64,000 nt of DNA from Chaetoceros tenuissimus (taxonomy: Eukaryota > Bacillariophyta > Thalassiosirophyceae > Chaetocerotales > Chaetocerotaceae), in contig BLLK01000020.1 of NCBI GenBank assembly GCA_021927905.1, forward strand, positions 930,001 through 994,000, given 5' to 3'. The notes under the pieces are model-generated. The model searched no databases, had not been told where the DNA came from, and saw nothing but the letters and a program-made list of their open reading frames with translations. This document shows positions 21,588-51,258 of this stretch, in pieces. How positions within the stretch are numbered: the stretch's first letter is position 1; the number at the start of each line of letters is the position of its first letter. A program made the position numbers and the translations under genes.

Positions 21588-22952
21588 CTACGCATCAATC
21601 AGCCACTGAGAACAACCTCTTCCCGAAGAGCAATCAGTACAGCAAGGTCCATCACTTTCATATTCAAGCAAATCTTTTCTTTTCTTGTAAAAGTTTCGAA
21701 GTGCACGATCTTTGATTACGAAACAGAAGAGAGCTTCGAATTTGCTATCCACATCTCTGCCTCTTTTGAATGGCGTTGGAGGAGCCAAGTTGGCTGCATT
21801 CTCACAAAATCGAACACAAAAACGCACCCACGCACTGACTTTCTCATAGTTTGTAGTTGATGAATGTTGTCTAAACTCAATGGTTGGCTGTCTTCCATTC
21901 TTGAGGTTTTGAAGATTCAACTTATAATATCTGCCATTTGGACACATAACATTTGCTAATTCTTGAGTGTCTGAACAATTCGAAAGCAAATTATGAGCAG
22001 CCCAGATACCACTCATGTACGATGAACGCGCTTGATCTTTGACAGCTCTTGCGTTACTCTGAAAGTAACGATCAGATTCATTGCTGCCACTACGTCTTGA
22101 CTTTGGCATGAAAGCATCCATTGCATCTTCATACTTGATGAATTGCTGACAGATCTTGACAATTTGTCTATGTGAATATTTGGAAACATCTACATGGCAG
22201 TGAAAGCCACATGATTTATTGACACGGACATTTTCACCAGAGAGGCCTCTTAGAATCTTGTTGACTTGAGAAAGACCCCCTCCTGATCTCAAAGGAGGCG
22301 AAACAATTTCAAACCGGTTGCAATCTGGCTGTGAGATATTGCATGTAATTGATCCATCTGGTACTAGTTTCCAATGATCTGAAGTACTTCGTCCTCCACT
22401 CCAGGTATCAATAACATCTATTTGCAAATCATTTGTCTCTTCCAAGTTCTGTGCAATCTGATATTCAGAATTATAGCTAGGCGACGACATTTCTAGTTCG
22501 ATCCCAAACTGGGCGTCATCTGAAAGTGCTGCCATACGAAATGGTCTTTCATGACGAGGTTCATTGAATCTCATGACAGCACCTTTTCGCTGTCTACTTT
22601 CTGGCGTGAAAGATACGTAATGCGAAACATCGTGTGTGCTGCCTCCACTGCCTCTAATCTTGATTTCAGCAGTGAATTGCCCAAACACGCTTTGTCTCGT
22701 CGCGAACCGCCAAGCCTGTGCTCCATTTGGTCTTTTCACTGGTACCGGTGTATTATGTACAAACTTTGGCGGAGTAAAGGTACTTCCTAGATCAAAGGTG
22801 ACACGTTCAATCAAATCTGGATTGTCAAGGACATCAACATAGATGGTAACATCGTGTTGCTTCTTTATGCCGCGTCTAGCCGAATAGACTGCTGCATCGT
22901 CAGGTATTTTACTATATGTGTTACCAACAATGAATTGAGCTGATCCTCCCAT
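21588..22952 (-). CDS. YEATS-like domain fused to a putative GS-fold amidoligase
   Basis: A 454-aa single-exon protein. Residues about 30-115 look like a YEATS-type beta sandwich (HDVTIYVDVLDNPDLIERV, FGQFTAEIKIRG). Residues 149-400 are an amidoligase domain (Amidoligase_2 type): FGIELEM at 149-155, HWKLVPDGS at 193-201, FEIVSPP at 214-220, SCGFHCHVDVS at 247-257, YYKLNLQNL, IEFRQHSS and AWVRFCVRFCENA. These Glu and His residues match the metal/ATP-binding core of the glutamine-synthetase-like fold. Family members are predicted to join a carboxylate to an amine. The C-terminus ends in a Cys-rich stretch (CCTDCSSGRGC). A paralogue with other partner domains lies 2.4 kb away. YEATS domains bind acylated lysines in eukaryotes; here the assignment is tentative. 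Confidence 0.8.
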   Translation of the reverse strand: MGGSAQFIVGNTYSKIPDDAAVYSARRGIKKQHDVTIYVDVLDNPDLIERVTFDLGSTFTPPKFVHNTPVPVKRPNGAQAWRFATRQSVFGQFTAEIKIRGSGGSTHDVSHYVSFTPESRQRKGAVMRFNEPRHERPFRMAALSDDAQFGIELEMSSPSYNSEYQIAQNLEETNDLQIDVIDTWSGGRSTSDHWKLVPDGSITCNISQPDCNRFEIVSPPLRSGGGLSQVNKILRGLSGENVRVNKSCGFHCHVDVSKYSHRQIVKICQQFIKYEDAMDAFMPKSRRSGSNESDRYFQSNARAVKDQARSSYMSGIWAAHNLLSNCSDTQELANVMCPNGRYYKLNLQNLKNGRQPTIEFRQHSSTTNYEKVSAWVRFCVRFCENAANLAPPTPFKRGRDVDSKFEALFCFVIKDRALRNFYKKRKDLLEYESDGPCCTDCSSGRGCSQWLIDA

Positions 22953-23310: not shown

Positions 23311-24954
23311 TCACCATTTGAACCTAGGGGTAGCTGATGCCGGATAAACAGTACAATCTCCGTTTTCATCAAAAGATGCTTTCATAAAAGTCTTCATTCC
23401 TGACCAAGTCTTTTCCTTCCTAATTTCTCTCACAATTTCTTTGAAACCTGAAGTTCCAGGATCAATGAAGAACTCGCAGTATCTGCTCTCATCATATACC
23501 ATAATTGGTTGACTATCATTACAACACTGAAGTTTGATGTAGAACTTTTCATTTGCTCTAATACCTCTTGGTTTCTTGTAGCCTTGAGCTGCATTGTTTG
23601 ATGGTTTTGTAGTACCACCAGACTGGAGAGATACCCTTGCAGAATACATGCCATTATTCTTTGGCTTATCCAATTTCACGCCACTACTGGCCAATTGACA
23701 TTCGTTCTTGTGACCTTCTTTCCAATGAGCCACTTGACATTCTCGATCACAATACCGTGCCTTCTTACATGCAGAACATTTCGCTCCACCTGTTTCACCA
23801 AGTTCTTTATTGCAAAAAGCACATTTTGTGTGTGCTTCCTTTTGCTTTGCTTTTGCTTGGCGTGATCCACGCTTCGATGCAGTATCCATAATCATTTGTG
23901 CAACGCTACTCTGGAAACGACCCATTCCTTGACACATGCTGAATGCAGAAATTCCATCAGCATCCTTTGTATGGATATCAGTATTATGCTTCTCCAACAA
24001 GAATTCAGCAACGTCATCTCTGTTTTGCATTATTACTTCCAATAGAGAAACTTGACCCATACGATCTCGAACATCAGTAAGGGGTGTCATGGGTTTGATG
24101 GAATCATCTATCAAACGTAAATTCTCCAGTTTTGTCTTGACTGGCTTTCCTTCAATAAACACTGTTCTTCGACCAGTATCAGGATCAAATCCGCCCACAA
24201 TTCCCCTCTTGCCATTCCAACTCTCTGCTTTTAAGCCAAACAATTCAACTTCATAGCCAAACATGTGATGAGATTTTGCTGCTTCGATACACATTTCAAC
24301 TACATTCAAAGTCATTTTGGTAGCCATACCGCCTGCGCCATAGTGCACCACAGTCTTACCGAGTACATCCTGAGCATAAGGATTGGCTCCATTTTGCAAT
24401 AGAATCTTTGCAGTTTCTTCATGATTTGCCATTCCATTAGGTACCATAAGATTCTTCCCTGCACTCACGATACCCAATAAAGGGCTCAATCTCATACTTG
24501 TTTCTCGGTGTTCAAGCAAATGAATAAGATCTAGATTGCGACTAGGTACTATTTCCTCAGACTTGCAATCATGAATCATTTTCTTGACAGATAAAGGCTC
24601 ACCAACTACACATAATTTCCACAAGGGAGCGACAACACTTTCAGATTCCATATTGGTAAGATGAGCATGAATGTCTCCTCCAATGGAATACAATTCTCGT
24701 GCACTGTCTCTAAGATTCCTATTTTTGATAATGTGTTGATCGCCATTTCCATATGGATCTTTGTCATTCTTTTTACAATCTGTTCCCATTTCAATCAGTT
24801 TGTTACGCATGAGTTTCTTTTGATCTGCGAGGGACATGCTATCCATCATATCCATTTGGGAAAAGGATTCACGCATGCCCTGCTCGCTTACAGATTTCCA
24901 TGCTTCTGATATAGCGTTAGGTTTGAAAGGTTTCTTTTTACTCTTTTTTCCCAT
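23311..24954 (-). CDS. Ankyrin-repeat protein with MYND zinc finger
   Basis: A 547-aa single-exon protein. Ankyrin-like repeats occur at about 170-215 (EETAKILLQNGANPYAQD, GKTVVHYGAGG) and 290-345 (MGQVSLLEVIMQNRDDVAEF, LLEKHNTDIHTKDADG). Between them is a short SH3-like or PxL-type segment (WNGKRGIVGGFDPDTGRR). The MYND finger at about 381-421 has the complete Cys/His pattern (CAFCNKEL, CSACKKARYCDRECQ, HWKEGHKNEC). MYND domains bind proline-rich peptides, and ankyrin repeats mediate protein contacts, so this is probably an adaptor. The basic N-terminus (GKKSKKKPFKPN) could be a nuclear signal. It lies between the two amidoligase genes and starts opposite the UIM-amidoligase gene, with which it shares a 423-bp divergent promoter region. 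Confidence 0.88.
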   Translation of the reverse strand: MGKKSKKKPFKPNAISEAWKSVSEQGMRESFSQMDMMDSMSLADQKKLMRNKLIEMGTDCKKNDKDPYGNGDQHIIKNRNLRDSARELYSIGGDIHAHLTNMESESVVAPLWKLCVVGEPLSVKKMIHDCKSEEIVPSRNLDLIHLLEHRETSMRLSPLLGIVSAGKNLMVPNGMANHEETAKILLQNGANPYAQDVLGKTVVHYGAGGMATKMTLNVVEMCIEAAKSHHMFGYEVELFGLKAESWNGKRGIVGGFDPDTGRRTVFIEGKPVKTKLENLRLIDDSIKPMTPLTDVRDRMGQVSLLEVIMQNRDDVAEFLLEKHNTDIHTKDADGISAFSMCQGMGRFQSSVAQMIMDTASKRGSRQAKAKQKEAHTKCAFCNKELGETGGAKCSACKKARYCDRECQVAHWKEGHKNECQLASSGVKLDKPKNNGMYSARVSLQSGGTTKPSNNAAQGYKKPRGIRANEKFYIKLQCCNDSQPIMVYDESRYCEFFIDPGTSGFKEIVREIRKEKTWSGMKTFMKASFDENGDCTVYPASATPRFKW

Positions 24955-25377: not shown

Positions 25378-26772
25378 ATGAATGAATATGTCGACGATGA
25401 ACAGGATGAGGAAATGCGAAAAGCTATGGAAGCCTCGCTAGAATCCCACTTTCATCATCAACAAGCACAGAGACAACAAGAACTTGAGGAACAACTGGCT
25501 CTAGAGCAATACCTTGCTGCGGAAGCAAGAAGGAAACAGGAAGAAGCGGCCGCAGCAGCGTTAGTTGCAGTATCGGAGATGCAGGACCAACAAATAGCAA
25601 TTGCTATTCATGAATCCTATGATTCGGTAAAGAGACAAAGGACAAATCAAGAAATGAATAATTATCTTACTTCGTATACAGTTGAAAGATCAGAAACAAA
25701 AGCGGTAGGAAGTTGGGATTGTCCCTCGTGTACATTAGTTAATGATCCATATGCTGGACATTGTAAAGCATGCGGTGTAAAGGCTCCTTTGCATGTGCTT
25801 ACATTCAAGAAATTCCCAAATGAAATGAGATTTGGCCTAGAGGTTGAGATCATTGTCCCCAATGGAAAAAGAGATGGATTTACATATGAAAGCATTGCAA
25901 AATCTTTGTCTAAATTTGGAGATAGGGTTGAGTACAGAGGTTATACACATGAGACAAGCACACATTGGAAAATTGTCACGGATTCTTCACTTCAATCCAA
26001 GAATGACAATGATTTATGCTTTGAATTAGTATCACCAATATTAGTCGGCGAGGGTGATACTGGTTTGCAAAGATTTCGAAATATTATGGACGCAATTGCA
26101 AGAATTGGTATCAGCACTAATGCAAGCTGCGGATTCCATGTTCACATTGATGCGGAAAATTCTTCGCTCAAAAATCTCAAGGCAATCAGTAATTGTTTTG
26201 TATCTTTGGAAAATGCATTTGATCTTTTGGTGGCGTCGAAACATTCACATGCAAGCAATAGACGGACCAATCAAAATAAATATATTCAGTCAAATAGGCT
26301 TGCGTTTCAACAATTGTCCAATAGGCAAAGATGGAGCAGTATTGCTGAAGTGCGAAATAGATACGAATTGGTGGAGCTGATGAATCCAGAATCAAGATAC
26401 TACAAATTAAATTTGACAAACTTGACAAAAAGGAATAGACCTTCTACTATTGAATTTCGACAGTTTGGAGGAATCGAAGATCTACAGGAAGCAGAAATTT
26501 GGGTTCGTTTTCTAGCTGCCTTTTGTGAGAATGCAAAACGAGGCAATATTCAAGGATGTCTCTTGTCAGAAGAGTCGCCAGTGTTTGATGAAATGCGATC
26601 TTTGTTCAATTTGATTGACGACACAGGGTTAGAAAGTTGGTACACAGTAGACAGACAACTTTTCCATGGACACAGTATCAAAAATGAGTGGATGTGTAAA
26701 ATCTGTTATCGAAAGTTTGCAAACAGTCGTAGCCTCTCACAGCATTGTAGTGCTGTCGGTCATAATAGGTAG
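25378..26772 (+). CDS. UIM and RanBP2-type zinc finger fused to a putative GS-fold amidoligase and C2H2 finger
   Basis: A 464-aa single-exon protein. Residues 11-23 (EEMRKAMEASLES) match the ubiquitin-interacting motif; a second UIM-like helix is at 71-83 (QQIAIAIHESYDS), with an Ala/Glu-rich helix between them. A RanBP2/NZF finger lies at 113-132: WDCPSC, then TLVN, then CKAC. Residues 150-395 are an amidoligase domain: FGLEVEI at 152-158, HWKIVTDSS, FELVSPI, SCGFHVHIDAE, YYKLNLTNL, IEFRQFGG and WVRFLAAFCENAK. The C-terminus is a C2H2 finger (CKICYRKF, then H and H in QHCSAVGH). UIM and NZF modules bind ubiquitin, so the enzyme may act on ubiquitin or ubiquitinated proteins. The domains are seen; the activity and target are inferred. 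It is paralogous to the YEATS-amidoligase nearby. Confidence 0.85.
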   Translation: MNEYVDDEQDEEMRKAMEASLESHFHHQQAQRQQELEEQLALEQYLAAEARRKQEEAAAAALVAVSEMQDQQIAIAIHESYDSVKRQRTNQEMNNYLTSYTVERSETKAVGSWDCPSCTLVNDPYAGHCKACGVKAPLHVLTFKKFPNEMRFGLEVEIIVPNGKRDGFTYESIAKSLSKFGDRVEYRGYTHETSTHWKIVTDSSLQSKNDNDLCFELVSPILVGEGDTGLQRFRNIMDAIARIGISTNASCGFHVHIDAENSSLKNLKAISNCFVSLENAFDLLVASKHSHASNRRTNQNKYIQSNRLAFQQLSNRQRWSSIAEVRNRYELVELMNPESRYYKLNLTNLTKRNRPSTIEFRQFGGIEDLQEAEIWVRFLAAFCENAKRGNIQGCLLSEESPVFDEMRSLFNLIDDTGLESWYTVDRQLFHGHSIKNEWMCKICYRKFANSRSLSQHCSAVGHNR

Positions 26773-27452: not shown

Positions 27453-30400
27453 ATGAAGAAGTTTCTCACAACTCTCTTCTTTCTCCTAGTACTATCGACG
27501 ACTAACCTCGCCGTTACAGTTCTAGCGAACAACTATGGTTGCCCTTTACCTGGAGAAGCCCCAGTGGATGTCGAAAGTGAGTATATCTACAAAAGTTTTG
27601 CCGTCTGACAAACTTTCCCTCAAGTTGAAACACTAACAATAACTTTTCCTATTTTTCATGCCATTATTTTCCCATGTTTCTATCTTAGTTCCTCCTGACC
27701 ATGATATCACCAAGAAATTCAAGGTAGTCGTGGGTAACAGCGAGAAGGATCAAGTTTGTATTCTTTATCGTGTTGTAGCCAAAGATGCAAGTGTCGACAT
27801 TAATTCATTCTCCAAAAACTCAGAGAGCTCCCACTTCATTCTAGAACCTGTGGCGAGAAGCTACCACAAAAAGAATTGGCATGCAGTGGCTGGACCATAT
27901 TCTGCATCTGTCAAGGTCAAAGAGTGTGTTCAGAAGGTTTGTACTTTTCGCTTTCCTGTCGTCAAGTCGGATGATTCCAAATATGTGTTTATGACCTTTG
28001 AACATAAGCTTGAAAGTGAGGAAGCGGAAAGAGCTCGACTATTAAGTAGAACTACGTTTGGTCCAACACTTGAAGAAATTAGGAATTGGCCTTATGGAGA
28101 AGGTTTGAAATCTTTTGCTGATTACATCCAAGCTCAAATCGATCTTCCAATGACTAGTTGGCGAGCTTATTGGAGAAAACGTCTTGATTCCAAATATACA
28201 ATGTGGACGCAAGGGTCTAGATTAGAAGCCATGCATCCATGTGATCAGTATTCTCGTTGGTCAGAGTACGCTCTCAATTTCTGGGACCAAAATAGATTAA
28301 CCATCACCATCACTAAAATTGATCCTGACGATCCAAATAGTAGACTTTTGATGTCATATAAAGATGGAGAGCCACTAACACTCGTAGATGAATTTGTACC
28401 GGGGCGACTTCGTGGGGCAAAATTAGGTAAGTTCACAAGTTATTTTCCAAAACGCCGCTACATCTGAACATTTATCTCACTTCAAGAGTCTATTTTCAAG
28501 ATTGTACCAAAGAAGAAGTTGCACCATATTGTGGCGAAGGGGAATACTTAATAACAAATAATATCGGAGGGTTGCAAGGAGAAATATTTTATCGACCAAC
28601 CTCGGGTCCAGCGACCCTTGGACTTGTGACTTTTCACAACCCGGTCATTGACCTTCCTGATTCCCTTATTAACGATCCAAATGCAGTAAAGCCACTGAAA
28701 CTCATCACATTGCCTAACGAGTCGGAAATGCAATTTTTGAGAGGGGCAGATAGAGGCTTTAGAGATTATATCCAAGCAACCTATAGAATGATGTCTGATA
28801 ATTGGTCGGGAAACGAAGATACGTGTAATGGATTCAAAAATGAAGAGGGGAAATGGTTTTTTTGGGACATTTTAGGGAAGGTTGGTGATACTGGTAAAAT
28901 TTTGAGGTATACTCCTTATGCTAGATTCAGGGACAATACTGTTGAAAACCCTTTACCGGATGGTGGCGCCCTTAAGTTTGATCATTTTGGTCCTCAGAAA
29001 TGTATCACTAGTATTCCTGATTTCACCAACATCCACTCATGCCGTCTGTCAAATGGGGTCGGTTGTGTGCCAAGATTTTTGGAAATGCAGCAAAACACTA
29101 AGGAAACAGCCGAGTCCGTTTTAGTCTGTGGGAGTAAGTATATTTCTAGTGGCTCCATACCGCAATTTTATTTGAAAAATTCATCTCATCGTAATATAAT
29201 TATAGCGCATGGAGAAGTAGGACACGACCCAGGATTTGAGGATTTAGATTTCGATAATGCATTTAGGTAAGTTGTGGCTATATTTCCTACTCTGAAAAAT
29301 GCCTCTTGTGAAGTTATCATCTCAAAATATAAGTTTCTTCTTTCTCATAATTCCAGGATGAGCTACCAAGCATTTATGGGATTACCATGGGGAGATCAAT
29401 GGGTTAATGTTTGGACCACAGTTTTATTTGAGGCTAAAGATCAGTAAGTGGTACAGACATGAGATCTGAGAATTAGAATATTTCTTTACATCAAGGGAAG
29501 GTCATTGACAACTTGCATGTATTTCCTTATCACAGGTTGAGACAGAGAATTGCTTGGGCCCTATCGCAAATATTTGTGATAAGCAAAGGATCAATTACAG
29601 AAGAAGGCAGTGGGAACGAATACTTGCTACATTACCATGATATATTTGTTCGCAATGCATTTGGCAACTATCGTGATATCATCAAGGAAGTTTCTTTTTC
29701 TCCTGTCATGGGAGAAATGCTTACTTACCTTAATGGTATCAGCGCTCCTCGGAAGTATCGAAACGATCAAAGTGTTGTAGAGGACCCAGACGAGAATTTT
29801 GCCAGAGAAGTAATGCAGCTTTTCACTATTGGATTATACAAATTTGACACGAGTGGCAATGTGCTTCTGAACAAGAAAGGTGTCCCTGTTACAACTTATA
29901 AAAATCAGGACGTCCAAAATTTCGCTCGAGCCTGGACAGGGTTTACCTATTCATCGCGAAGAGACAATCTTGAAGGACGACCATATTTTCCAAATCGCAT
30001 CAATCCAATGTTTTTGGTTGGACACCGTAGAGATCAGTTTCCTAAAACAGATTTGCATCGTGGTTTCATAGGAGACAGGTATGTTTGTAATGCCTTCTGT
30101 ATGTACTTTTTATCTCATGGCTTCTCAAATTCTCGTCTTTTCGAATTGAAAATTATTCAGGTATCCTGAATGTCGTGCATTACCGGAAAAGCAATTTCTT
30201 AAGAGTAAGTTTGATGATGTATTCTTTAGTTACATATATATGGTTCAGCAAACTGTAATAGACCAATCATTCTAATCTCAATTTCAATCTAGTCGGAGCA
30301 AAGTATAGACTACTTGGATCGATCAACTTTCCATACATGCATTGGGAAGGTCAATATGAAGGTGGTACTAAGGTATACCCATGGCGGAAAAGTCCAAATT

Positions 30401-33400
30401 TCAAAAGATTAGAGTAAGTACGAGTTTTCAATAACATTTGTAAAGATTTGTTTGTGTTTGCAGAACCTCAACAAACTCCCCTTGATAGACTTCAAGAATC
30501 TAGTGCTTTGTACCAGAAGCTATGCAACTCAGCCATTGCCAATGGCTCTTGCAATTATTCAGTTGAAGTAGAACTAGACGCAAACTTGGAATGTGACGGT
30601 GAAGAATGTGACATTGATAATCCAATTGTTGTCATGATTCAGGACGATCCTCCCATCTACTATGAATGTGAGTAAATTCAAATGCCTAAGATCAAATGTA
30701 TGATCTCTTGAACTCACCCAAGTATCGTCTTCTTTCTTTCAATAGATCTCAAGCCTGCATGTGTTGATCTTGTTTTCCAAGAATCAACAGATCTTGCAAA
30801 GATTGTGGATAGATATGGACGCGTTATGTGCCTCGATAAAGACGATATTGACGTTGCACATCCTGTTTGTTGTGATGATCCTTCTGTTGTTAAAATTGAG
30901 TAAGTTATTTCGATATTGGAACATTCTTACCCATGACCCTTAGCTCACTTATTTCTTGAAAACAGTTGTATGTTCTCCGCCGAAAGGACTTCATATCATA
31001 CTGCAATGGAGAGATGCCAAGTGTGTGATTTGCAATTTGTACCATATTCCACCCAAACACAAGCACAATGCAAATTCTATGACTTACCAAATTCTGGATT
31101 TCGAAATTGGTATTGGACAGATAAAGGATGCGCACCAATGCAGTTGAGAGTGAGACAAGATAGTTTTATCTCAGCGATTCACAATCCAATCATTGACAAA
31201 TTTGAACAGCAAGTGGAACTGGCTGTGAATTCAACAAACATCAATTATTTCCCAGTTCATTGGAAAAGAAAGAACTATCCAACACCTTCGAAACAGTGCA
31301 ATGGTATCTGTGTGCTGGAAGAGGACACATGTTTGTGTTCAGTTGAGATAAGTAGAGAAGCTGTTTTCACTGGCTCTCTTCCAACGACCAGCAATGAATG
31401 TCTTCAACTGAAAATTGGAGCACCAAATCCCCTGTCATTGGGAGATGAATACATTGAACAAACTGATGCTAATGCAGAAGTTCGAGTGTGGTTCCACACT
31501 AATGAGCTGGAGTTGACCAAAAACAGCATCTTTTCATGTGTTCACAATGAACGCCGAGTGTTTGTAAGAAATGCTGAAAGTATAGTATCTATACCTGGGT
31601 CAGACTTTAGTTTCCGCAATCCGCCAAGTCTGATGAGACTGGCCTATCCGGATACAAGAGATGCTCATTATGAGACGGACGCGGTTATTGATGAGTTATT
31701 CTATCATGAAAACACACCACCCTTTGTTGCAAAGAGTATACTCAAAAGATTTGGGTTCAGCAATCCTTCTCCTCGCTTCGTCGAAACTGTGTCTAAAGCC
31801 TTTGCATCAGGAATATTTGTGAAAAGAAAGAAGGGCATTAGCATAGGTTCAGGTAAAAGGGGCGATCTTGCTGCGACAGTTGCAGCAATTCTTTTGGACA
31901 AAGAAGGAAAGACACCGGTACTCGATGCAGATCCTTCCAGCGGTGCTCTCAAGGAGCCGGTGATGAAATATTTTCAATTAATGAGATCTCTGGGTTTTCG
32001 GAAACACCCTTCTATTGTTTCACCACGAATTAGAACCATCAGTTCAGGACAAGAAGCATTTGGAGCTCAAAGCGTCTTTAGTTTTTTCCTTCCAGATTAC
32101 AGTCCAAAAGGCCAAATGGCTTCAAGTTCTCTTTCAGCACCAGAAGCAGAGCTTCTTGACACACCTAGAATCACTGGTATCATGAATGGCATGATTTCAT
32201 TAATTGATCTTGGTTTGAACAACTGTCTTGGGGGTAAGAATCACAAAACATCGCGTTCATTTTTTCCAATTTTATAATTATTATCTCACTATATATGAAA
32301 TCAATATGAAGGATGGGGTAAAGAGAACATTGTTTGTGGGGTTATCACCAGCAATAATCTTAATTGGAATAGGACAGATGTGGCTGATGGGCTTCTATCA
32401 TATGAACCAGCATCAGATATGAGTGCTGAAGAGGTCATTGATGAATTGGCTTTGGTTCTGACAGATGGACGACTCAACAAGGCATCTCGAAAATACATTG
32501 CTAATGCGTACAGAGAAGACTATGCCGAAACGAATAATGCAAGAACTAGTAGTCTCCGTCTAGCGCAAAAGTTAATACTTTTGACCCCTGAATTCCATTC
32601 GACAAATGTTGTGAAAAGCACGAAGAAACATAGACCACAATTTCAAGCGGGGACAAGTGAGAAACCTTACAAAGTAAGTTACAACTGTAAAGAAATGTTT
32701 GCATTTTTGCAGGGTTAACCATTGTTCTTTTTTCATTTACAGGCGATTGTGGTTTTGAATCTTTGGGGAGGAGCAGATAGTAAGTTCTAGTGATGAAATC
32801 CCTTTGAATGAAAGATGTTTACAATCCATTCTAATCTTTCATATTTTTCTGATAGGCTACAACATGCTGATGCCCCACAGCAATTGCAAACAAGAGGATG
32901 CTTTCGAATTATACAAACTAACTAGTGGGCCAATGGCTATTGATAAAGACAAAATGCATACTATATCTGTCGAGAATCAGGACTGTGGTACAATGGCTGT
33001 CCACCCACTATTAAATTCCCTTCGTGATATGTATAATGATAAAGATCTATCTTTCATTGGGAACCTAGGCATGCTACAAGAGAGTCGTGTCAATAAAAAC
33101 AATTGGGCAAAAAAGCACAAAAAGATACAGCTATTTGCTCATGACAAAATGCACCAAGAGACACTGAAAATGGATATTTTTGATGAAGGACAGGTGTGTA
33201 CTACTCTTTCAACGAATACAATATTTATTTCATTCCTACAACCTACTAAATGATTATTTACTTTACATAGGGGACAGGCATGGGTGGCCGCATAGCAGAT
33301 GTCTTGAGTGATCGTAGTAAAGGGTATGATTTTGTTCCAAATGTCATAAGTACTGAAGGTAATTCCTTTTTTGCAAGAGCGGATACAGTAGATACAATCA

Positions 33401-49099: not shown

Positions 49100-51258
49100 A
49101 TGGCTCCAAGATCTGAGGAAGAGAAAGCTCGACGTAAAGCTGAGTTTGAAGCAAGAAAAAAGGCTCGACAAGAAGCGAAAGGCAAGAAGGAAAAGGAGGA
49201 AGCAGAGAAAAAAGCTGCTCTTGAAAAGTTGAAGAATCTAAAAATTGATTCCGATGAAGATGATTCAAATGATAAATTTTGCTACATATTGACTCTTGCC
49301 GAAGATGCTCAGAATCAAATTTATAGTTTTTGTTCCGCAAGAGATCTAGGATGTATTTCAATGACATGTCGAAGCGTAAACTTTGGAATGGGCGAAGCTA
49401 GGATTTATCACATCTTGTCTCGTTTGAATTCTCAAGCTAGAGTTGACGAAGTAGGAAAGTTAATGGTTCCAATTCAGTTTGCTAAAAACGAAAAGGAATG
49501 TAGATGTTTATTGGAATCTGCACTTATGGGAGGTGGAGAGACTGGGCGACTTGTGACGAAAAAAATGAAAAAGAGCAGTGAAGGAGACGCAGATGAATAT
49601 ATTGGCTTTGCTCGTTTTCTGGAAGAAGCTTTACTTGGATACTCTACCCAAAAAGTACCTGGGCAAAAACCTGCGTTACTTCCACCTATGATAAATGGTC
49701 GTTTTGCAAGTGTAAGTCCAGAGCATTCTCTTTGTCGTCTTGGAGGAGATGGACTCACTACGGGTGCAGGAGGTTCTGGATGCGCTGCATGGGGTGTAGG
49801 AAAACGCGGACAATTGGGTAATGGTAAAAGAAAAGATGAGCAACATCCTAAAAGACTTCTTGGACTTGGATATGGTGGTAATCGTATCGTTCAAGTCAGC
49901 GCCGGAGGGGGATTAGTGCGCGTAGCGCATAGTTTACTTTTAACGTCGACAGGACAGGTGCTATCCTTTGGAACTGCCCAATATGGTCAATTAGGACATG
50001 GATATAGTGCGGGAAAGCAGCTACCGGATGTATTACGCCCACAAGTGTTGGATGGATTGAAATACCTTCGTTGTATCTGTGTAAGTGCAGGAGAACTCCA
50101 TTCCGCCGTTGTTACAGAAGATGGCGATTTAATGGTTTGGGGAGATGGATTCTGTGGACAACTTGGTCTCGGTGATAAACGTCCACAACTGGAGCCAGTA
50201 CTTGTAGAAAAGGGTGGTCTTGAAGATGAATGTATCTTGACTGTTTCATGTGGAGCTCGTCATACATTAGCAGTCACAGAGGAGGGAGAAGTATGGAGTT
50301 TCGGTTTAGGTCATTTTGGAGTATTGGGTCGAAGTTTCACACCGTAAGTGGATTCGAATTTACGACAATAATATTTTACATGCTCATTACTCATAATGCT
50401 CATTATATACCTACGAGTAGCTATGAGTACTTCAACAACTCAGCAGTGGCAGGTCTTGGAGTAGACGACGAAGAAATTCAAGTAGAAGTTGCAGTAGAGC
50501 ATCAGGATCCCCTTCAAAATATTGAACACATGGATGATGAAATCAGGCAACAGTTGGATCTTTTAAGTAATCTTACTCTTGATGATGGTAGCGATCAGTG
50601 TATTCCAAAGGTCATTGAAGCATTGCAAGGAATCAAAATTATTGGTGCTTGCGCTGGCCACAGACATAGTATATTTTTGGATGCAGAAGGTAACGTATAC
50701 ACTTGCGGAGATGGATCAGGTGGAGCCTTAGGGCATGGCGATACATCTAGACAGGATTTTCCAATGAAGGTAATGTATTTCGAAGAGAATAATATCAAGA
50801 TTATGCAAATAAGTGCTGGAGTTGATATGAGTATGGCTGTCTCAACGACAGGAGAAGTGTATGGATGGGGTAATGCAGTTGGAGGACGCATTGGAGTTAT
50901 CAATAAAGATTACACAAAGGACTATGTCACTCTTCCTCAAAAGGTTAATGTTATTGGGGAAAATGGAGAAGCAAAGCAAGCGGTAGATGTCGAATGCGGT
51001 TATGTACATTCCATGATTGTATGCGTCGATGGAACCGTTTTCATGTGTGGAGATGTCGAAACTGATGAACTTGATGCTGTCGATAATAAGTTAGTACCAT
51101 TGACCCCAGGATCCCATCGTGAACCAAAGCAAATACCAGATTTTAATATATGGCACAGATTACCCGAACCAAAGGAACAGAAGAAGCAGACAAAATGGAA
51201 GAAATATGGAAAATATGAATTGAAGGGAAGATCTGCGATGTTGGCTCAAGGGGATTGA
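49100..51258 (+). CDS. RCC1-repeat (beta-propeller) protein with basic coiled-coil N-terminus
   Basis: Two exons, 49100-50343 and 50418-51258 (or 50421-51258), give 694 (693) aa; both acceptors, GAG and TAG three bases apart, keep the frame (FTP-SYEYF or FTP-YEYF). Residues 1-55 are a Lys/Glu/Ala helix ([18 protein letters not shown]). Residues 60-95 may be an F-box-like motif ([19 protein letters not shown]). RCC1 repeats follow: [57 protein letters not shown], then [14 protein letters not shown] and [12 protein letters not shown] in exon 2. RCC1 propellers serve as guanine-nucleotide exchange factors or as substrate-binding modules of E3 ligases. Which applies here cannot be told. Confidence 0.9.

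Follow-up and report, generated by a model that had tools for sequence, protein, structure and literature searches.

Introduction

What does an enzyme of the glutamine synthetase fold modify when a single diatom gene joins it to a zinc finger of the NZF kind, many of which bind ubiquitin? The question is raised by P0001, a gene of Chaetoceros tenuissimus (genome of 41.0 Mb in 68 contigs) that lies in a 64,000-nucleotide stretch of contig C14 (positions 930001-994000), referred to here as the window. An earlier note on this DNA had read P0001 as an amidoligase fused to two UIM-like helices, an NZF and a C2H2 finger, and had proposed that it adds an amino acid or peptide to ubiquitin or ubiquitinated proteins.

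To our knowledge, the marking of proteins by the glutamine synthetase fold has so far been tied to bacterial pupylation, and we know of no NZF protein of the ubiquitin system (NPL4, TAB2, HOIL-1) that is fused to an amidoligase. Should the proposal be true, the ubiquitinated proteins of eukaryotes would be open to a second kind of marking chemistry, a direct ATP-dependent amide ligation, and P0001 would be an example of a phage-type enzyme turned regulator of proteins.

Results

P0001 is a single open gene

P0001 is a real gene: an ATG frame of 464 codons runs without interruption along the forward strand, over exactly the coordinates first proposed. Its domains were assigned by a Pfam profile scan of the protein, in which 13 families were listed at E 10, and by a profile search of the genome. 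In window coordinates, the features are:

25378..26772, + strand: P0001, 464 aa, with a long helix, an NZF, an Amidoligase_2 domain and a C2H2 motif
25393..25689, + strand: predicted long charged helix with two UIM-like motifs (residues 6-104; motif cores start at 13 and 73)
25708..25776, + strand: NZF / RanBP2-type zinc finger (residues 111-133; profile and spacing pattern)
25822..26523, + strand: Amidoligase_2 domain, glutamine synthetase fold (residues 149-382; profile, fold and invariant columns)
26695..26763, + strand: C2H2-type zinc finger motif (residues 440-462; full pattern, profiles below cut-off)

RING, HECT, RBR and U-box domains were absent from the 13 families listed for P0001. 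Neither P0001 nor its neighbour P0002, described below, was matched by PADLOC (defence families), and NCBIfam gave no family match; a defence-family identity for the two genes was dropped. The structure model of P0001 had a mean pLDDT of 80.6.

The amidoligase domain is complete and keeps its core

The enzyme class of P0001, an amidoligase of the glutamine synthetase fold, is well supported. Pfam family PF12224 (Amidoligase_2) matched residues 149-382 with 114.5 bits (E 9.6e-33, cut-off 22) over model positions 2-244 of 245, which bears out the amidoligase assignment of the earlier note along the whole profile; the genome search gave 117.1 bits. We aligned P0001 and P0002 with 45 of the 154 viral and bacterial loci that were fetched, and scored invariance on those 45 alone. 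P0001 agreed with all 26 columns invariant in the 45 relatives, so that the predicted Glu/His core (E155, E157, E216, H254, H256 and E359) is retained. R295, K343, N345 and R361 are also among the shared residues, and we take these ten positions to correspond to the metal and substrate ligands of glutamine synthetase. Conservation reached 95% or more of the 45 relatives at 38 columns, and P0001 and P0002 each agreed with 34 of these.

In the structure model the amidoligase part had pLDDT values mostly around 90 or higher, with a dip at residues 291-300, and it matched the glutamine synthetase fold. Foldseek matched it to YbdK (E 2.9e-6), glutamine synthetases and GmaS, and VIA-align superposed the model on a glutamine synthetase over 236 residues (Z 14.6, rmsd 4.7). 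The solved structures of YbdK, glutamine synthetase and GmaS thus have their fold in common with P0001 over 230-250 residues; they differ from it in sequence (about 10% identity), act on small molecules and carry no reader domain. Fold and core thus hold up, and the catalytic activity of P0001 is predicted from its family.

Dop (E 1.4e-3) and PafA (E 7.9e-3) of the pupylation system appeared at lower ranks. Because Dop is among the fold matches, P0001 might be pictured as an eraser that removes an amide-linked modification from ubiquitin-marked proteins by means of the same fold. Dop and PafA, however, are only 8-9% identical to P0001 and rank below the glutamine synthetases, YbdK and GmaS, and we consider this reading very improbable.

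Cyclotransferase neighbours suggest a gamma-glutamyl amide product

The likely chemistry is suggested by the neighbours of the viral relatives. Enzymes of the GGACT type (gamma-glutamyl-amine cyclotransferase) open gamma-glutamyl amides. Relatives were present in 41 viral records, which stem from 37 of 80 IMG/VR loci and from 4 of 5 phage loci; of these records, 26 contained a GGACT profile match at E 0.001, 23 of them above the cut-off. In the IMG/VR records the match was found in 24 of 37, in every case on the same strand and 160-1792 bases downstream of the amidoligase; one of these is L015, the tree neighbour of P0001 and P0002 (see below). A GGACT gene also lies downstream of the amidoligase in Bacillus phage 055SW001, and in Arthrobacter phage Kovu the amidoligase is directly preceded by a gamma-glutamyl cyclotransferase and directly followed by a glutamine amidotransferase. 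The picture is weakened by the remaining 15 of the 41 records, which had no GGACT match; among them are those that hold the two phage matches listed first for P0001, one being a 6.6-kb fragment.

As a baseline, two viral GGACT proteins used as tblastn queries matched 44 and 130 of 50,697 phage records, a contrast that is rough because tblastn is less sensitive than a profile search. Of the 14 control genomes, which are all cellular, 9 have GGACT somewhere. Two members of the GGACT family (43.8 and 30.5 bits) are encoded in the C. tenuissimus genome, on contigs C54 and C46 and not on C14.

Because GGACT-type enzymes open gamma-glutamyl amides and adjoin the relatives, the amidoligase family most likely makes such amides. 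This suggests a gamma-glutamyl amide as the product, which is more specific than the "amino acid or peptide" proposed before, and ATP-dependent gamma-glutamyl amide ligation is the likely activity of P0001, judging by its family. The same neighbours would suit small gamma-glutamyl amines equally well, and the closest solved folds all act on small molecules. P0001 could then be a metabolite enzyme that, like GmaS and glutamine synthetase, turns a free amine into its gamma-glutamyl amide, with fingers that merely place or regulate it. We regard this as a doubtful reading, though one to be taken seriously; three amidoligase copies with three different protein-reader or ubiquitin modules, described below, suit protein substrates better.

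The NZF is real and its link to ubiquitin plausible

That P0001 carries a RanBP2-type finger, as the earlier note had claimed, was confirmed by two routes. The zf-RanBP profile matched residues 111-133 with 25.2 bits (E 9.7e-6) in the protein scan, just below the cut-off of 27, and with 30.4 bits in the genome search, the only one of the two in which it passed the cut-off and where it ranked 8th in a list of 25. The pattern W-x-C-x2-C-x3-N-x6-C-x2-C at residues 113-132 was obtained in none of 20000 shuffles of residues 1-145. Most of the finger was modelled with pLDDT below 50.

Ubiquitin-binding NZFs have a Thr-aromatic/hydrophobic pair and a later hydrophobic residue, and this third contact position is Met in NPL4. 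In P0001 the sequence reads as a Thr-Leu pair with Ala at the third position. Compared with the NZFs of NPL4, TAB2 and HOIL-1, P0001 thus has the same spacing and a Thr-hydrophobic pair, but Leu in place of Phe/Tyr and Ala in place of Met. RanBP2-type fingers can also bind Ran or RNA. A phmmer search of P0001 against the PDB placed RanBP2 and Nup153 best, ahead of NPL4 (E 0.0061). RNA-binding fingers of the ZRANB2 type have an Arg pair; on reading the sequence we found no such pair between the Asn and the third Cys of P0001, and rejected that type. In our judgement the NZF is real and its link to ubiquitin is plausible.

Three other NZFs in the genome lie at the ends of proteins encoded at L169:986-3130 (minus strand), L167:93-1535 (plus) and L170:37-1227 (plus). 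By eye, without profiles, these proteins resemble a photolyase/cryptochrome, a Wss1/SprT protease and a bromodomain protein, respectively.

UIMs are dropped and the C2H2 motif stands in part

The two UIM-like helices proposed for the N-terminus fared less well. Residues 6-104 were modelled as a single long helix, which allows UIMs and does not demonstrate them. The protein scan, which reported families up to E 10, did not list the UIM family PF02809, and a genome search with this family, which weak matches can escape, gave 14 matches without P0001 among them. UIM_2 (PF23625) matched at E 4.8. When residues 1-110 were shuffled, at least two UIM-like motifs arose in 8.2% of shuffles and an acid-rich one in 3.2%. 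With negative profiles and motifs this frequent in shuffled sequence, UIMs as originally described were dropped.

For the C-terminal C2H2 finger the outcome was mixed. The full motif C-x2-C-x3-F-x5-L-x2-H-x5-H is complete at residues 440-462 and was obtained in 0 of 20000 shuffles, whereas the C2H2 Pfam profiles (E 0.15 and 0.29) stayed below their cut-offs. The region was modelled with pLDDT below 50.

A YEATS-type sister and a broken RING copy suggest probable protein substrates

A second intact amidoligase gene, P0002, lies 2.4 kb from P0001 on the opposite strand, and one further gene sits between them:

21588..22952, - strand: P0002, second intact amidoligase with a YEATS-type domain (454 aa; Amidoligase_2 120 bits)
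21807..22514, - strand: Amidoligase_2 domain of P0002 (residues 147-382)
22614..22853, - strand: YEATS-type domain of P0002 (residues 34-113; pYEATS profile)
23311..24954, - strand: ankyrin and MYND-finger gene (zf-MYND 40.9 bits, Ank_4 35.3 bits)

A functional link of the ankyrin-MYND gene to its two neighbours was not apparent. P0002 is 31% identical to P0001 over the amidoligase part and agrees with 23 of the 26 invariant columns, missing three. Its amidoligase part was modelled well, and residues 1-69 and 82-135 had pLDDT below 50. The pYEATS profile matched P0002 with 26.0 bits in the protein scan (cut-off 26.9) and with 28.9 bits, above the cut-off, in the genome search. A stronger pYEATS match (49 bits) is found elsewhere in the genome, at C27:630747-630947 (plus strand).

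The third amidoligase copy found in the genome lies on the same contig about 0.8 Mb away (C14:1748499-1748842) and is broken by internal stops; it contains a 107-base repeat at 97% identity. Its C-terminal part can be read in one frame:

L004:1073-1564, - strand: C-terminal frame of the broken copy (163 aa; amidoligase end, RING, tail)

The amidoligase end of this frame scored 24.5 bits (cut-off 22), and a RING (zf-RING_2, 36.4 bits, cut-off 27.3) lies in the same frame between the amidoligase core and a tail that resembles the tail of P0002 (45% over 51 columns). Since this copy is broken, an amidoligase with a RING finger may be non-functional in this strain. The three copies thus bear three modules: an NZF in P0001, a YEATS-type domain in P0002 and a RING in the relic.

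As the copies carry three different modules of the protein-reader or ubiquitin type, the substrate of P0001 is probably a protein, and the YEATS sister and the RING relic strengthen the idea that P0001 may modify ubiquitin-tagged proteins. The choice of targets through ubiquitin is possible, since ubiquitin is bound by NZFs that have a Thr-hydrophobic pair and since a sister copy has a RING. For the ubiquitin-directed ligase of the earlier note, the enzyme class therefore stands and a plausible link to ubiquitin is provided by the NZF with its Thr-hydrophobic pair and by the RING in the sister copy, but the UIM leg of the argument is weak.

The same modules could also bring the enzyme to chromatin. 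YEATS domains are chromatin readers in eukaryotes, P0001 has a C2H2 motif, and by eye the other NZFs of the genome sit on photolyase-, Wss1-protease- and bromodomain-like proteins. In such a scheme NZF, YEATS and C2H2 would lead a ligase to histones or repair proteins, with ubiquitin at most an address. The YEATS-type domain of P0002 argues for it; yet this domain scores higher with pYEATS than with the eukaryotic YEATS profile (26.0 vs. 20.3 bits), and prokaryotic YEATS domains are not necessarily chromatin readers. We hold a chromatin or DNA-repair ligase to be rather unlikely.

Almost all relatives read in viruses and bacteria lack the fingers

Relatives were searched in viral and bacterial collections (phage records, IMG/VR, GTDB contigs and BFVD). 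With tblastn, P0001 matched 59 of the 50,697 phage records at a best identity of 33.8%, and the 20 of these 59 matches that were listed all cover P0001 only from residue 136 onward. An IMG/VR scan with alignment A2 gave 127 relatives, 80 of which were kept, and GTDB contigs gave 74. Pattern-based IMG/VR scans with P0001 alone and with P0002 alone, which see only part, confirmed no relative. In BFVD, annotated amidoligases of the giant viruses Catovirus (A0A1V0S9H8) and Hyperionvirus (A0A3G5ADB8_2) matched the P0001 model.

Reading frames were examined for 61 of the 154 loci (80 from IMG/VR and 74 from GTDB), four of them short or cut (L036, L052, L113, L114). A CxxC pair was absent in 60 of the 61, hence NZF and C2H2 are absent from these relatives too, and the fingers of P0001 look like eukaryotic additions for this reason. 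The exception is L110 from a Nitrospirae bin (644 aa, L110:2299-4230, plus strand), with a zinc-ribbon-like stretch of 19.1 bits, below the cut-off of 25. By eye, SWIM-like Cys/His stretches flank it on both sides.

In a tree of the amidoligase frames, P0001, P0002 and the viral row L015 grouped together with support 88/89 (not starred), and the tree program warned that long branches meet. Without P0002, P0001 remained with L015 (SH-aLRT 82); without P0001, P0002 moved weakly (57) to L040. Nine of the 61 frames, near-duplicates or short, were omitted from the first tree and 12 from the later two. P0001 and P0002 are not firmly placed beside L015, and by these trees the two genes may go back either to a common origin or to separate capture.

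The grouping with L015, together with the finding that all relatives come from viruses and bacteria, giant viruses included, would fit a gene captured from a virus or bacterium and kept, for instance, for defence or surface chemistry, with fingers unimportant for catalysis. The sampling, however, was one-sided, being confined to viral and bacterial collections; the placement is unsure given the long branches; and PADLOC found no match. We judge plain capture to be improbable.

Discussion

The reading that we prefer, tentatively, makes P0001 an ATP-dependent ligase that, guided by its NZF, attaches a gamma-glutamyl amide to ubiquitin or to proteins carrying it; this reading may well be the right one, although we would not yet call it probable. 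By analogy with its family, P0001 would activate a carboxylate with ATP, the gamma-carboxyl group of glutamate being the likeliest, and join it to an amine. The attached modules suggest that the NZF would hold the partner protein by its ubiquitin, so that the amide would be placed on ubiquitin or the ubiquitinated protein without an E1/E2/E3 chain. The chemistry would resemble that of the pupylation ligase PafA, but steered by a ubiquitin reader. Several observations weigh against this reading: profiles do not support the UIMs, RanBP2-type fingers can have other partners, the third contact position is Ala, the finger has low model confidence, the RING copy is broken, 15 viral records lack a GGACT match and the diatom's own GGACT genes lie on other contigs. 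PafA and Dop share the fold superfamily with P0001 and are its protein-modifying members; apart from their low identity, they differ from P0001 in the ubiquitin-type reader that P0001 carries.

P0002 would act in the same way on proteins selected by its YEATS-type reader, and the two genome-encoded GGACT proteins would be candidates for removing the mark. A wider speculation, to which we give little weight, is that diatoms may have a small set of protein amidoligases independent of any E1/E2/E3 chain, each reading one mark (ubiquitin through NZF, acyl-lysine through YEATS, or an E2 recruited by RING) and writing a gamma-glutamyl amide that GGACT enzymes erase, a mark-on-mark system derived from an enzyme of phage type. 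The proposed ligation itself is open to direct tests, since two intact genes that have different readers sit 2.4 kb from each other.

With known Amidoligase_2 proteins (PF12224; phage and bacterial, PHROG 2443) P0001 shares the full-length domain, the invariant columns and the fold. The relatives that were read are mostly 250-370 aa long, 60 of 61 without CxxC, and P0001 adds the helix, the NZF and the C2H2 motif. The domain family is known, and the NZF-amidoligase combination appears to be a variant of it, as judged against the open literature and the viral and bacterial relatives. Iyer et al. 2009 is reportedly the founding amidoligase analysis and may describe eukaryotic fusions.

In titles and the first lines of abstracts in the open literature we found neither a eukaryotic amidoligase tied to ubiquitin nor an NZF-amidoligase fusion accompanied by copies with YEATS and RING modules. 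At that same level of title and abstract opening, no item combined amidoligase with YEATS, and amidoligase together with diatom led to phages of OM43 bacteria only. Excerpts of published work mention putative amidoligase genes in fungal genomes (PMC3158057, PMC8982410), and an excerpt of a prophage study connects the amidoligases of phages with an altered host surface (PMC11318856). Enzymes of the CDC123 type are described in PMC4431377 as predicted eukaryotic non-ubiquitin ligases that act on proteins; they differ from P0001 in having an ATP-grasp fold and not the glutamine synthetase fold.

Other observations in the window and genome

Further along the window, a DUF1800 gene lies in two pieces at 29513-32277 (plus strand; 100.3 and 47.7 bits); the pieces may be exons of one gene whose start lies further upstream. 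RCC1 repeats occupy two overlapping frames at 49100-51258 (plus strand), perhaps a spliced gene or a tandem pair. Across the genome, the silicon-transporter family had 11 matches, as befits a diatom, all above the cut-off and the best at 705.6 bits; one of the 14 control genomes was matched, below the cut-off. At C17:442278-446357 (minus strand), three silicon-transporter domains stand head to tail in a frame listed as 1459 aa, and one of the matches there displays two internal stops.
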